From: Halobacteriales archaeon
Lineage (GTDB): Archaea > Thermoplasmatota > E2 > JACPAO01 > JAHFTW01
NCBI GenBank assembly: GCA_020201445.1
Contig: JAIVGU010000061.1
Location: 1-5,009, forward strand
Length of the DNA: 5,009 nt
Reading direction: 5' to 3'
Shown here: one piece after another, positions 1-5,009 of the stretch
Position numbering within the stretch: the stretch's first letter is position 1
Layout: each line of letters begins with the position of its first letter
Notes under the pieces: model-generated
The model's input: only the letters and a program-made list of their open reading frames with translations
Databases searched by the model: none
Told to the model about the DNA's origin: nothing
Position numbers and translations under genes: made by a program

Positions 1-1403
1 CAAGTGGTCTCGGCGTAATCCAGGGCCTTCTTCTGCTGGACGCCAGGATGGGCGTGCACCCACTCCAGGAGGTCATGCAGAGGGGGCTCGCGCATGAGGA
101 CCGTCTTCTGCCACCCTGGGCCCGCCTTCGCGGGAAAGAAGCGGTGGCTACCGCGCTGCTCGATCTCGGTCAGGAGTCGGCTGCGCACCAAGAGCGTAGC
201 GTGGGCGCGCAGGGTCGTGCGGGGGATTCCGGTGGCCCGGCTCAACTCGCGCAGCGTGGTGCCGGGGTGCTGCTGGACGTAGTCGTGGATGGCCTTGCGG
301 CGCGGGTTCTGGAGCCCCCGCTCGAACAAACGCGTGAACAGGCCAGCCGCGATGATCTTGTACACCACCACAGTCGCGACGGCAATGGCTGCGGCCGCGC
401 CGGCGGTGGCCCAGCCCAGTTGTTCAAGGGTCACCTTGGCCACTGGCGTCTCGTCGAGGGAGAGGCCGGTGAGGTTGCCGCCGAATTGGGTCCGCATCCC
501 GGAAGGCGACGGCTCTAGCCCCGAGAGCTGGATTTGGCCTCGCGCCCAGAGCGTGTGGTTGGCCGGGTTGAAGCAATCGCCACAGCCCCCGGTGCTGTGG
601 CCTTCGGGCAAACGCACCCACCCTGCCACGTCCAGGTCGACGCGGGGGCCTCCGGCTAGGACCACAGCGGTCGTGCCGAAGCCGGTCAAGCGGCCTCCGG
701 TGGCGGCGAAGGCTCCGTAGGAGTAGGAGGTGGAAGTGATGCTTCGGCCCAGAGGGAGGGGAACCGTAGTCTTTGAGGAGCCACCCCCGCTCGGGCAAGG
801 GTCTTTGGAGCAAGTGATGGAGGCACTGTACCACTCCAGTTTGGTGACGTTCTCGGCTTCGACCTGGAAGGAGATTGTGCCGCCGCTAGGGGGGATTTCG
901 GCGCGCAGGGCGGCGTCGTGGGTGCCGCTGCACTGCGAGCGGGCGACGTGCTGGTAAAGTTCGGTGTCGCTCAACAAATCGCTCAGGCAGGACGCCGCGG
1001 GCTTGTCCTTCAGAAGTCCCGTGAAGTCCCCCGCCGTGAAGCGGAGGCGTTGCGCCTCGACGTAGAGGGAACCAGGGCGCTGCGCGAAGGCTGCATGGGC
1101 TTGAACACTCGCGAAGGTCGCGGGGTCATGACTCGTGACGGATTGCGGAGTGGCGTTGAAGCGGTAGCCATCGACGTGCGCCTCGGTGTCCGTCACGTTG
1201 TCATACTGGACCGGGCCCGCCAGGGTCGCGTCAAACCCTGCATCCTGCCCCTTGAAGATGAACAGGGCCCAGGTCCCGGTCCCGTTGAGCGTGCCGCCTA
1301 GCTGCGCTGGGGGCTGGAACTCGATGGCTTGCAGCCCGGCGCTGGCCGGCACACTGACCAAGGGCAGGCAAAAGAGCGCTAGGGGGACAGCGGCTGGGCG
1401 CAT
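1..1403 (-). CDS. Membrane-spanning winged-helix regulator with exported sensor-like domain (3' end missing)
   Basis: The reading frame starts at ATG 1403 and stays open to the left edge, giving 467 residues without a stop; the C-terminus lies outside the window. Residues 1-22 form a signal peptide (likely cut after SVPASA). Residues 23-325 are a probable extracytoplasmic region with paired cysteines (139/158, 198/203, 274/277, pairing inferred) and several N-x-T/S sequons. Residues about 331-356 are a membrane helix rich in Ala/Val. Basic residues follow (FERGLQNPRRK), fitting a cytoplasmic side. Residues 368-425 fit a winged helix-turn-helix: LRELSRATGIPRTTLRAHA as the HTH, then a beta-wing ending near RGSHRFFPA. 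A second similar module seems to begin at about residue 440 (LHDLLEWVHAHPGVQQKKAL) and is cut. Membrane-linked winged-helix proteins of this order are common in archaea; the ligand and DNA target are unknown. The start overlaps the upstream lipoprotein gene by 25 bases, with GGGGA seven bases or so upstream, suggesting translational coupling. Confidence 0.85.
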   Translation of the reverse strand, partial: MRPAAVPLALFCLPLVSVPASAGLQAIEFQPPAQLGGTLNGTGTWALFIFKGQDAGFDATLAGPVQYDNVTDTEAHVDGYRFNATPQSVTSHDPATFASVQAHAAFAQRPGSLYVEAQRLRFTAGDFTGLLKDKPAASCLSDLLSDTELYQHVARSQCSGTHDAALRAEIPPSGGTISFQVEAENVTKLEWYSASITCSKDPCPSGGGSSKTTVPLPLGRSITSTSYSYGAFAATGGRLTGFGTTAVVLAGGPRVDLDVAGWVRLPEGHSTGGCGDCFNPANHTLWARGQIQLSGLEPSPSGMRTQFGGNLTGLSLDETPVAKVTLEQLGWATAGAAAAIAVATVVVYKIIAAGLFTRLFERGLQNPRRKAIHDYVQQHPGTTLRELSRATGIPRTTLRAHATLLVRSRLLTEIEQRGSHRFFPAKAGPGWQKTVLMREPPLHDLLEWVHAHPGVQQKKALDYAETT

Positions 1404-2281
1404 TCGAAGTCCCCATAACGTTTGAGGTTGGCCGAGAGTTCCATGCTGTCGAACTTCTGGCCGGTCCCAAGGTAGGTGGTCATGCCGTTGTAGGTGTAGA
1501 GCATCGGCGGCTGCATCGTTCCCGGCGTGATGGCAAGGGGCACTTGGTCGAGCAGTGGAACGATGCGGAGGTTGGCGTAGCTCAGGTTGGTCGCGTTGAA
1601 CCAATACATGCGCTCTGTCGAAACAGGGCCTGTGCTACTGGTCGTGTCCGACACGTAGTAGGTGACCTGCGAGGCGGGCTTGCCGGGTTCATTCCATGAC
1701 CAGACCTGGGTGCCGACACCGTTGTGAACGTCCTGCTTGATGTTGAATTGGGCAAAGATGACGGGCAAGTCGTAGGTGGCCTTGAGGTAGTCGGCGAGGT
1801 CTTGGTCGTCCACCCAGAGGGAGTGGAGAATCCACAGCGCAACGATGCCGTCCGTGCCATCCAGGTTGGTGCAGTTCCGTGGGGGGTCCAAGTGGTTGTG
1901 GCGCTCAAACAGCAGGTGGATGGGTCCGCGCTCGAATGGCCCCCAAGAAATCCGGTTGCACTCCGCCATAAGCAAGGATACCTCATCCACGTTCACCGGG
2001 TCGGGGGCGGGCCAGGTCGACGGGTATTCGCCCGGCCCCACGGATTCAGGGTAGTCGAAGACTGTTCCCCCAGTTCGGCAGCGAGTAAGGGAAACCTCCA
2101 GTGGAACGGGCCTCCCTTCAGGAGGGACGAGCGGGTTTTCCGTATTCGTGTTCGTGACGCTGGGCCCACCGGTGGTGCTGGTTTGAGTTGTGGATTCATG
2201 GACAACTTGACCCATGCAACCTGCCAAGAAGAGGAGCGCGGCGAAGGCGGCGACGCCCTGCAACCTCAACGTGTCCATCAT
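1379..2281 (-). CDS. Predicted secreted lipoprotein of unknown function
   Basis: This is a 300-residue protein counted from ATG 2281. A longer GTG start at 2326 is in frame, but it would add 15 residues ahead of the signal peptide and overlap the upstream gene further. ATG 2281 has GGAG eight bases upstream and touches the upstream stop codon. The second ATG at 2278 is almost equally possible. Residues 1-21 are a hydrophobic signal sequence ending in a lipobox, L-A-G-C, with Cys22 as the likely lipidated residue. A Thr/Ser/Asn-rich linker follows (about 23-50), then a folded domain of about 240 residues rich in aromatic residues, with N-x-T/S sequons (NCT 136-138, NAT 229-231, NLS 232-234) and cysteines at 68, 108, 137 and 294. 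The product is probably anchored on the outer face of the membrane. I do not recognise the family. Its place between a secreted protein and a membrane regulator suggests a binding or sensing accessory, which is inference only. Confidence 0.85.
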   Translation of the reverse strand: MMDTLRLQGVAAFAALLFLAGCMGQVVHESTTQTSTTGGPSVTNTNTENPLVPPEGRPVPLEVSLTRCRTGGTVFDYPESVGPGEYPSTWPAPDPVNVDEVSLLMAECNRISWGPFERGPIHLLFERHNHLDPPRNCTNLDGTDGIVALWILHSLWVDDQDLADYLKATYDLPVIFAQFNIKQDVHNGVGTQVWSWNEPGKPASQVTYYVSDTTSSTGPVSTERMYWFNATNLSYANLRIVPLLDQVPLAITPGTMQPPMLYTYNGMTTYLGTGQKFDSMELSANLKRYGDFECAQPLSP

Positions 2282-2709
2282 CACGGGCACTCCAACTTCT
2301 CCACAACCTGAATGGTATGTGTCCACGTCCCCAAGTCCGCCATCCCATTCGCGTACCTCTTTTCACCAAGGTATTGGAAAGTGACAGATTTTGCCCAAGG
2401 CTCGGGCTGCACCGTTCCGGGGACGTCGAAAACCCAAGGGTCGAAGACGCGGCTGGACACCACGCAGAGACCACAGGGAGAGGTGTGGTCGAGGTAGCAA
2501 AGGAGAATGGCCGCTGGGGCAGGTTCCGTTGCGTTCGTGCCAGTCTGGTTGTAGAACTGCCCGGTGGCGGCGTCAATCTGGGCGTGCGCGAATGCCGTGA
2601 GTGCATCCATGATGCCGGGCACATCGTCGGGGGACGGAAGTGGGTCCGCGACCACGGTGGAAGAGATTAGCAGGACACAGAGCGTCAGACCAGGGAAGAA
2701 GCGCTGCAT
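2281..2709 (-). CDS. Small secreted protein of unknown function, first gene of the operon
   Basis: This 142-residue protein starts at ATG 2709 with a clear AGGAG seven bases upstream. Residues 1-21 form a signal peptide (MQRFF, a hydrophobic core, then likely cleavage at VVA-D). No further membrane segment is visible, so the mature product of about 121 residues is probably released or surface-associated. It has two adjacent N-glycosylation sequons (NQT 54-56, NAT 59-61) and a C-G-L-C motif at 79-82, plus Cys71 and Cys141. The CxxC could be a disulfide or a metal/redox site; there is no thioredoxin context to favour redox. The family is not recognised. Its TGA stop shares one base with the ATG of the lipoprotein gene, so the two are almost certainly cotranscribed and translationally linked. 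It is the promoter-proximal gene, so it may be the most abundant product of the operon. Confidence 0.82.
   Translation of the reverse strand: MQRFFPGLTLCVLLISSTVVADPLPSPDDVPGIMDALTAFAHAQIDAATGQFYNQTGTNATEPAPAAILLCYLDHTSPCGLCVVSSRVFDPWVFDVPGTVQPEPWAKSVTFQYLGEKRYANGMADLGTWTHTIQVVEKLECP
2290..2293 (-). promoter_or_regulatory. Ribosome-binding site choosing the lipoprotein start
   Basis: GGAG on the minus strand lies within the last codons of the upstream gene, eight bases before ATG 2281. It favours the ATG at 2281 (or 2278) over the upstream in-frame GTG at 2326, agreeing with the position of the signal peptide. Confidence 0.6.
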
Positions 2710-2716
2710 GGCATTT

Positions 2717-2721
2717 CTCCT
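2717..2721 (-). promoter_or_regulatory. Ribosome-binding site of the small secreted protein
   Basis: AGGAG on the minus strand sits seven bases before ATG 2709. It is the best Shine-Dalgarno match in the window and fixes the start codon. It also argues that the operon transcript is not leaderless. Confidence 0.75.
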
Positions 2722-2745: not shown

Positions 2746-2753
2746 TACTTATA
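2746..2753 (-). promoter_or_regulatory. Archaeal TATA-like box for the minus-strand operon
   Basis: Read on the minus strand the site is TATAAGTA, an AT-rich island in GC-rich surroundings. Its centre lies 40 bases upstream of the ATG at 2709. With the usual archaeal spacing of about 25-27 bases this predicts a start of transcription near 2723-2725 and a short leader that just includes the ribosome-binding site. The bases before it (GTGTGCC) are not a typical purine-rich BRE, so the promoter may be weak or need an activator. It could also be chance. Confidence 0.55.
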
Positions 2754-2760
2754 GGCACAC

Positions 2761-2809
2761 GCCCACTCTTTGGTAAATGATGGATGCTGCGATTTACCAA
2801 AGGGTGGGC
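2761..2809. repeat. Inverted repeat, 18-bp arms, candidate regulator-binding site
   Basis: The left arm GCCCACTCTTTGGTAAAT (2761-2778) and the right arm ATTTACCAAAGGGTGGGC (2792-2809) are reverse complements at 17 of 18 positions, separated by 13 bases. The arm centres are 31 bp apart, about three helical turns, so proteins on the two arms would face the same side of the DNA. The left arm ends only seven bases from the TATA-like box, overlapping where TFB would contact. This position suits an activator or repressor of the operon and possibly of the divergent gene. A remnant of a small mobile element is less likely: no target-site duplication is visible. Confidence 0.75.
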
Positions 2810-3009: not shown

Positions 3010-5009
3010 ATGAACCAGCCGACACACCGCACCGCCGCCAGCCTGGCGGTGGCACTCCTCACGGCCCTTGCCGTGATTCAGACCCCCGTCTCTGCCGACT
3101 CGTCAGCAGCGGTGGCCTCGACGCCCTGCCCCGCGAACAACCGGCTCATCACGGGCTCCAGCTTCGTCGTGCCCGCCAACGGCACGCTCGTCCTGGATGG
3201 TCCGACCACCATCCGCGCTGACTCCGTACAAATCCTCGGCACTCTGTTGACCGAGGATGCCGATGGAGCAGCAAAGGATGCGCCCTCTTTGTGCATCGAA
3301 GCCACAAGTCTGACGGTGAGCGGCGTCCTTTGCACTGGGCGCGGCAGCGACGGAACCGTAGCAGCCGGCCCCCTGGCCTGGGGCGGCAACGGTACGCGTG
3401 GGGGCAACTTGGCTGTGAACCTCGTGGCGAACGCTACCGCCAGTCCGTCGTTCACCCTTCAGGGTGGCTTGCTCTGCACCGGGAGCGGCGGAAATGGTGG
3501 ACCTGCCTTCGGCGCTGCGAACGGCGCTCAAAGCATGGTGGTCCTAGACCCCAAGCGGTTCACGCGGCTCTACTCTCTCTGCCAATCGCTTGGCGACGTT
3601 GGCGGAGATGCAGTGGGCCAGCTTGTCAACCTGAAGAAGAGCTCTCTGACCAACGACCTCAGTTTCACGACCCCTCAGATACAGCTATGCGCCTACCTGA
3701 TGCCGGTGCAGGATGTTTTCCAGGACCCGCAGGGCTTCCTCTGCAAGGCACTCACGATTGATGGCGACAGGCCTCCCAGGGTGTGCGACCCCGTCGACAC
3801 CTCCCCTGACCTTGGGAATCCATGCACGCTTCCCGGCATTTCCGAAGTGCCTCCTTGCGGTCCGGTCCCCCAACCTTGCAGCCTGCCAGCCATGGACCTC
3901 GCTCCCGTGATCTGCACACCCGTTCCCCCGACGTGCACTCTACCCGGAATGTCGCTGGTGCCCCTGCTCTGTGGGCCAGTACCGCCGACATGCAGCCTGC
4001 CTGAGGTGAACCTTCTTCCTGCAGTCTGCCAGCCTGTCCCTCAGCCCTGCACCCTGCCCGGAATGTCGCTGGTGCCACTGGTCTGCGGACCGGTTCCGCC
4101 AACATGCAGCCTCCCCGGCGTCTCACAGGTGCCGCCGGTCTGCAAGCCCATGCCCTGCATCACTATCCAGTGTTTGGCGCCTTTTCTGCACTGCGAGGGG
4201 CCTGATTGCGTCCCGCCGCCGCCCTGCACCCTGGACTGTGTTCCCACCTGCCAAGATGTGACACACTCCCCGTACTGTTCCTTCGACCCCATGCCCTATG
4301 TGGACCTAGCCTGGGCTTTGGCGATGGATGCAGCCAGGTTGGTGACAGACTGCTACTCGGCGTCCTCCACAAGCGCCTACGGTGGAATCGGGGCCGACGG
4401 AGGCTTCCTCAGCGTGAACTACCCGCCGGGGTCCACCTCCCTCAACGTTTCCCCTGGCTCCATCTTCCTCGGCAAGGGCGGCGACGGAGGGGACGCGGCC
4501 ACCTTGGGAAGCCGGTACGGGATGAAGACGACCCTTGGCGGGAACGGTGGCGCCAGCAAGGCGGCGTTCAACGACGGTCTTCTGTCGGAGCAGCTCCAGT
4601 GGTTCGGCTCGGGTTTCGGCGGACGAGGCGGCGTCGCGCAGGCGCAATCCAGTTGCATCCTTCCTGGGTGCAGCCTTGAGAACGCGACCTGGTGCGCTGC
4701 TGATTTCGTCGTCCAGAAGGCCTGTTTCAGCACGGCGCATCCAGACTGGGTTTCTGACTTCTGCACGGATGTAGAATACATGGTGCAGCAGTTCCTTGGC
4801 TTCGAGGTGCCTCTGGTGGGGACAGCAGGCAGCGCCGCAAGTGGCGCGACCGGGTCCGCAATCCCAGGCGGCGACGGTGCCAACGGTAGCCAGGGCCACG
4901 CTGGGGTTGACATGAGCGCCGACATTGGCGCTTCAGGCAAGGATGGCAGCGTCGGCCTGAGCTGCTCCGTCACGCATGGGGAGGCAGGGCACGACGGCAG
5001 GGACGGAGG
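3010..5009 (+). CDS. Large secreted glycine-rich, Cys/Pro-repeat surface protein (3' end missing)
   Basis: The frame opens at ATG 3010 and runs without a stop through the right edge: 666 residues so far. Residues 1-29 are a signal peptide (hydrophobic core, likely cleavage VSA-D). Residues about 30-170 have alternating hydrophobic strands and Gly-rich turns (TVSGVLCTGRGSDG at 102-115, LQGGLLCTGSGGNGG at 150-164), resembling beta-solenoid rungs of surface proteins. A less repetitive stretch (171-271) leads to six Cys/Pro repeats (272-382) and a Cys-rich tail (383-423). The Gly-rich rung pattern returns at 478-515 (SPGSIFLGKGGDGGDA) and again from about 605 to the edge, where DG/NG/GAxG patterns are dense. 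Several N-glycosylation sequons occur. No catalytic motif was seen; an adhesin, sheath or structural envelope protein is the likeliest role. The Shine-Dalgarno sequence is weak (AGGCG). The start was chosen for the signal peptide; the frame is also open upstream of it. Confidence 0.85.
   Translation, partial: MNQPTHRTAASLAVALLTALAVIQTPVSADSSAAVASTPCPANNRLITGSSFVVPANGTLVLDGPTTIRADSVQILGTLLTEDADGAAKDAPSLCIEATSLTVSGVLCTGRGSDGTVAAGPLAWGGNGTRGGNLAVNLVANATASPSFTLQGGLLCTGSGGNGGPAFGAANGAQSMVVLDPKRFTRLYSLCQSLGDVGGDAVGQLVNLKKSSLTNDLSFTTPQIQLCAYLMPVQDVFQDPQGFLCKALTIDGDRPPRVCDPVDTSPDLGNPCTLPGISEVPPCGPVPQPCSLPAMDLAPVICTPVPPTCTLPGMSLVPLLCGPVPPTCSLPEVNLLPAVCQPVPQPCTLPGMSLVPLVCGPVPPTCSLPGVSQVPPVCKPMPCITIQCLAPFLHCEGPDCVPPPPCTLDCVPTCQDVTHSPYCSFDPMPYVDLAWALAMDAARLVTDCYSASSTSAYGGIGADGGFLSVNYPPGSTSLNVSPGSIFLGKGGDGGDAATLGSRYGMKTTLGGNGGASKAAFNDGLLSEQLQWFGSGFGGRGGVAQAQSSCILPGCSLENATWCAADFVVQKACFSTAHPDWVSDFCTDVEYMVQQFLGFEVPLVGTAGSAASGATGSAIPGGDGANGSQGHAGVDMSADIGASGKDGSVGLSCSVTHGEAGHDGRDG
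3823..4155 (+). repeat. Six tandem Cys/Pro-rich coding repeats in a paired higher-order pattern
   Basis: Units begin at 3823, 3877, 3934, 3991, 4048 and 4105; the first is 18 residues, the next four are 19 and the last about 17. The consensus is C-[TS]-L-P-x5-P-x2-C-x-P-V-P-x2. Cysteines therefore recur with alternating gaps of 11 and 6 residues (10 in the first unit). Odd units begin CTLPG and carry C-G-P-V-P; even units begin CSLP and have T, Q or K after the second Cys. The array thus looks like three copies of a 37-38-residue pair. Units 3 and 5 differ by one residue but by several synonymous bases, so they are not a very recent duplication. The segment probably forms a rigid, disulfide-braced stalk. 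Confidence 0.9.

Follow-up and report, generated by a model that had tools for sequence, protein, structure and literature searches.

A stretch of 5009 bases (GC 0.64; hereafter the window) on contig JAIVGU010000061.1 of the Halobacteriales archaeon assembly GCA_020201445.1 carries three overlapping genes on its minus strand, here called A, B and C in the order in which they are read. They encode a small secreted protein, a lipoprotein and a protein with the layout of a transmembrane transcription regulator. Our preferred explanation, held tentatively, is that the operon encodes a co-component-like receptor in which C is the regulator, B a ligand-binding co-sensor and A an accessory protein, with autoregulation through an inverted repeat upstream of gene A. 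B is predicted to form a barrel with the acetoacetate decarboxylase (ADC) fold, devoid of the Schiff-base lysine of these enzymes. Little is known about the signals to which archaeal transmembrane regulators respond or about their partners; a regulator encoded alongside a lipoprotein of barrel fold, together with a candidate operator, offers a defined, testable receptor.

Gene organization

That the three genes overlap, as the initial annotation had it, is borne out by the list of open reading frames. The stop codon of gene A (2281..2709, minus strand, 142 aa) and the start codon of gene B (1379..2281, minus strand, 300 aa) share the sequence TGATG, and gene C (3..1403, minus strand) starts inside B, with an overlap of 25 nt (1379-1403) between the end of B and the start of C. 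Gene C is cut by the edge of the window, with 467 codons seen. GC content at the three codon positions is coding-like in all of them (A 0.60/0.48/0.72; B 0.57/0.46/0.78; C 0.65/0.53/0.82). Read from the sequence, both overlaps suggest translational coupling among A, B and C. A hydropathy scan with 19-residue windows finds an N-terminal hydrophobic segment in each protein, which supports the earlier assignment of A as a secreted protein and of B as a lipoprotein. In B, the segment ends in a lipobox, LAGC, with Cys22 as the lipobox cysteine (the motif was read by eye).

Protein C, the predicted membrane regulator

C had been described as a protein with a signal peptide, about 300 outer residues, one membrane helix and a winged helix-turn-helix. 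This layout stands, but the description was drawn from an incomplete gene, and the one full-length relative (P0005, 62% identical) has a second C-terminal winged helix. Behind the signal segment, the outer domain comprises about 305 residues (approximately residues 23-327; 423..1337, minus strand) with six cysteines, all retained in P0005, and six N-glycosylation sequons; structure modelling gave no confident model for this domain. The single transmembrane segment lies within residues 328-360 (324..422, minus strand), where hydropathy windows starting at residues 328-342 reach values of up to 2.18. It is followed by the first winged helix-turn-helix (approximately residues 366-421; 141..308, minus strand), which matches PF13412 HTH_24 with 24.6 bits at a curated cut-off of 21.9. 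Alignment to P0005 places the start of the second winged helix at 3..110 (minus strand), where it is cut by the window edge; residues 419-494 of P0005 model as a winged helix. C combines a predicted DNA-binding domain with at least one predicted transmembrane region, and from this layout it appears to be a transmembrane transcription regulator that would bind DNA through its winged helices.

Another protein found with the winged helix-turn-helix of C, P0006 (744 aa), begins with an extensive N-terminal part, which is accompanied by a hydrophobic segment and tandem winged helix-turn-helix domains at the C-terminus; this is perhaps a C-like layout with a different outer domain.

There is a fair case, itself short of an even chance, that the large outer domain of C is the whole sensor and that A and B are regulated outputs, envelope proteins produced in the presence of the signal. 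An outer domain of this size with six conserved cysteines would be enough for a sensor, and single-pass transmembrane regulators with no partner are common (PMC10269533). Also in favour, the candidate operator described below precedes gene A and hence the whole operon. By itself, however, sensing by C alone leaves an ADC-like barrel with no conserved lysine in B unexplained. The present evidence hardly distinguishes this explanation from a receptor made of B and C.

The promoter region and a candidate operator

An inverted repeat (2761..2809) is present upstream of gene A. Its two arms of 18 bp each (2761-2778 and 2792-2809) are 13 bp apart and pair at 17 of the 18 positions. When the window was shuffled 200 times with dinucleotides preserved, no shuffle gave a repeat of this quality with 3-30 bp between the arms; the best value, 16, occurred once. 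The repeat ends six bases upstream of a TATA-like sequence, CTATAAG (2748..2754, minus strand), containing the sole TATAA of the window on either strand (at 2753, 44 bp before the ATG of A). A ribosome-binding-like GGAG (2717..2720, minus strand) was read from the sequence 7 nt before the same ATG. The repeat touches what we take to be the usual position of the B recognition element (BRE) beside CTATAAG. For regulators of the TrmB family, binding upstream of BRE/TATA is associated with activation and binding downstream of it with repression (PMC4158304), and activation is therefore the expected outcome of binding to the repeat. Judged by position, C is probably the protein that binds this candidate operator and activates its own operon.

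It is unlikely that A, B and C merely share a transcript, with no functional link, while the repeat is the site of another regulator or belongs to the divergent gene that starts at 3010. Such an explanation would fit a trio described here from a single locus and a repeat that sits in a divergent intergenic region. Against it, both gene overlaps point to translational coupling, and the repeat abuts the TATA box on the side of A, B and C, about 200 bp from the start of the divergent gene.

As RNA, the repeat would form a strong hairpin (-29.9 kcal/mol, z -4.76). An RNA element was considered and rejected: transcription of A-B-C is predicted to start downstream of the repeat, and Rfam gave no family match in the window. 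We treat the repeat as a site in DNA. The hairpin would form part of a transcript only if the divergent gene were transcribed from a start over 200 bp ahead of its ATG. Exact 11-base arms of the repeat with 10-16 bases between them were found in no viral contig searched.

The exported proteins B and A

The initial annotation recognized no family for either exported protein. At the sequence level this holds, with no family recognised for B and no match above noise for A in Pfam, NCBIfam or PHROGs, but at the level of the fold it does not hold for B. Among the chains listed, the best matches of the B structure model (predicted local distance difference test, pLDDT, 67.3; predicted template modelling score, pTM, 0.69) in Foldseek and VIA-align are ADC chains, with a VIA-align range of approximately residues 51-296. 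The modelled barrel extends from the first to the last long strand, residues 62-287 (1421..2098, minus strand), and is ADC-like in this prediction.

An ungapped register scan of B against ADC ranked the proposed register first of 44,940 windows at 30 residues, first also at 25 and 35 residues and third at 20. In this register, for which the shuffle control is modest, the residue opposite the Schiff-base Lys115 of the ADC structure 3bh2 is Val174 of B (1760..1762, minus strand), and across five B relatives the position reads V, T, V, V, V. No lysine column is common to the five rows, and Pro-Lys is invariant in six of six ADCs compared. The B family also has four conserved cysteines besides the lipobox cysteine. 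The five family members yielded no Pfam ADC match, and the B profile found chance-level matches only among PDB chains. B is predicted, on the basis of its model, to be an ADC-fold barrel and, from the register and the five rows, to have no Schiff-base lysine, which lends some support to the earlier proposal of the lipoprotein as a ligand-binding subunit.

It is distinctly improbable that B is instead exported as a working enzyme, catalytically active through a new site in the ADC barrel, and that the operon is a catabolic or detoxifying unit under C. In favour of this, Arg110, Glu117, Arg118, Glu126, Asp158 and Arg224 are retained in all B relatives that cover these positions. Against it, no lysine is common to the five rows, so that the chemistry known from ADC would not apply, and further enzyme genes are lacking from the A-B-C operon within the window.

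A has a signal segment at approximately residues 1-21 and a mature part with Cys71, Cys79, Cys82 and Cys141; one further single hydropathy window, at residue 66, is barely above threshold. A weak Pfam match to PSME4_C (E 0.087) was rejected. The idea that A is a small relative of B was also rejected: although both carry PGT(M/V)QP close to the C-terminus, neither their alignment scores nor their profile scores exceed the range of shuffled sequences. The role of A as a small secreted accessory protein is the weakest part of the preferred explanation.

A model for signalling by the operon

In the receptor that we favour, the N-terminal domain of C lies outside the cell and its C-terminal winged helices inside, joined by the one membrane helix, as the layout of the sequence shows. 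B, a lipid-anchored exported barrel of predicted ADC fold, would take up a small ligand in the former active-site cavity, most likely with no turnover. Anchored beside C, B would touch the outer domain of C at the membrane surface, and ligand-bound B would alter this domain and, through it, the winged helices. C would then act on the repeat at 2761-2809 beside the TATA box to activate its own operon.

Several points weigh against this model. The contact between B and C is inferred, the B-C pairing is described from a single locus, the order of the B and C genes is reversed relative to VtrA/VtrC, and the repeat could, as considered above, serve another regulator or the divergent gene. Confidence in the B model is middling (pLDDT 67.3), and the models of four other members range from 63.5 to 48.7. 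Profile-profile alignment of five B relatives with six ADCs in hhalign found no kinship (probability 0.1). With 500 column shuffles at each length, the register match was reached by 27 when the length was 30 residues, by 13 at 35, by 101 at 25 and by 151 at 20. Because shuffles reach it so often, sequence support for kinship between B and ADC is weak, and the assignment of the ADC fold therefore rests on the structure model.

If the model is true, the fold of an enzyme of central metabolism has been put to new use as a binding protein on the outside of the cell, and the co-component idea, which was described for enteric bacteria, applies more widely.

Relatives and the divergent gene

Searches of the protein database with C, B and the B alignment found relatives of both proteins, and these homologues are few. 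For the relative P0011, Pfam matches to DUF3558 (E 0.0014) and MbtH (E 0.56) were below cut-off and rejected. Scans of genome contigs gave 16 pattern matches for B and 90 for the 4-member B alignment, and scans of viral contigs gave 10 for B, 18 for C and 6 for A; none was confirmed in either set. Among plasmids, C matched two Haladaptatus proteins in the winged helix-turn-helix only, and searches with B, A and the divergent gene gave no matches, nor did P0005 against phages.

The divergent gene (3010-5009, plus strand) encodes at least 666 aa and runs off the window. Its product has a signal segment, 35 cysteines and 13% glycine, with GGxGG-type stretches around a block rich in cysteine and proline that has an imperfect tandem repeat of 114 bp (3934-4148). 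Searches of Pfam, NCBIfam and PHROGs gave no match to it.

Comparison with known systems

Transmembrane transcription regulators are widespread in archaea, being present in 367 of 404 surveyed species, and the single-pass form is the commonest (PMC10269533). C resembles them in the combination of a DNA-binding domain and a membrane helix in one chain. The one-component sensing system first proposed for the operon names the right class, but since such regulators are common in archaea, C alone is no new kind (PMC10269533). The studied archaeal regulator ArnR/ArnR1 has an N-terminal helix-turn-helix and two C-terminal transmembrane segments (PMC6396743), whereas C has a signal peptide, an N-terminal outer domain and a C-terminal winged helix-turn-helix.

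Among the papers listed in searches of an open-access library, none concerns a lipoprotein of ADC fold that is exported and encoded beside a regulator of this type, the word archaea is absent from the body text of the paper on co-component systems, and the available part of PMC4158269 contains nothing on this gene pair. Compared with members of the ADC superfamily (3bh2, 3cmb, MppR and Swit_4259), B differs in being an exported lipoprotein, in having no lysine kept in all relatives, in its four conserved cysteines besides the lipobox and in the lack of a sequence-profile match.

The proposed mechanism resembles that of the co-component systems VtrA/VtrC and ToxR/ToxS, in which the receptor consists of a membrane-tethered helix-turn-helix protein and an exported partner from the same operon (PMC9214523, PMC4933562). 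The operon described here likewise pairs a membrane-tethered helix-turn-helix regulator with an exported partner, predicted to be a barrel, encoded by an overlapping or adjacent gene. In VtrA/VtrC and ToxR/ToxS, partner and regulator form the receptor; for B and C, a joint complex is a proposal. The partner B is a lipoprotein with a predicted ADC-like barrel encoded upstream of C, while their partners are lipocalin-like and encoded downstream; the helix-turn-helix is at the opposite end of the regulator, and there is an extra exported protein, A. The overlapping or adjacent genes that mark the VtrA/VtrC superfamily are found here as the 25-nt overlap of B and C, with B upstream. Its members carry an N-terminal CadC-like helix-turn-helix followed by a transmembrane segment and a periplasmic domain, and in C the helix-turn-helix is C-terminal, after the transmembrane segment. 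A-B-C is therefore placed outside this superfamily, because the helix-turn-helix is at the other end of C and the modelled barrel has a different best match among the chains listed. It is possible, though we consider it doubtful, that the operon is an independently arisen archaeal counterpart of the co-component systems, in which a dead ADC barrel was exported, lipid-anchored and made the co-sensor of an autoregulating membrane regulator with tandem winged helices. The unusual part of the operon is the ADC-fold partner B, not the regulator C.
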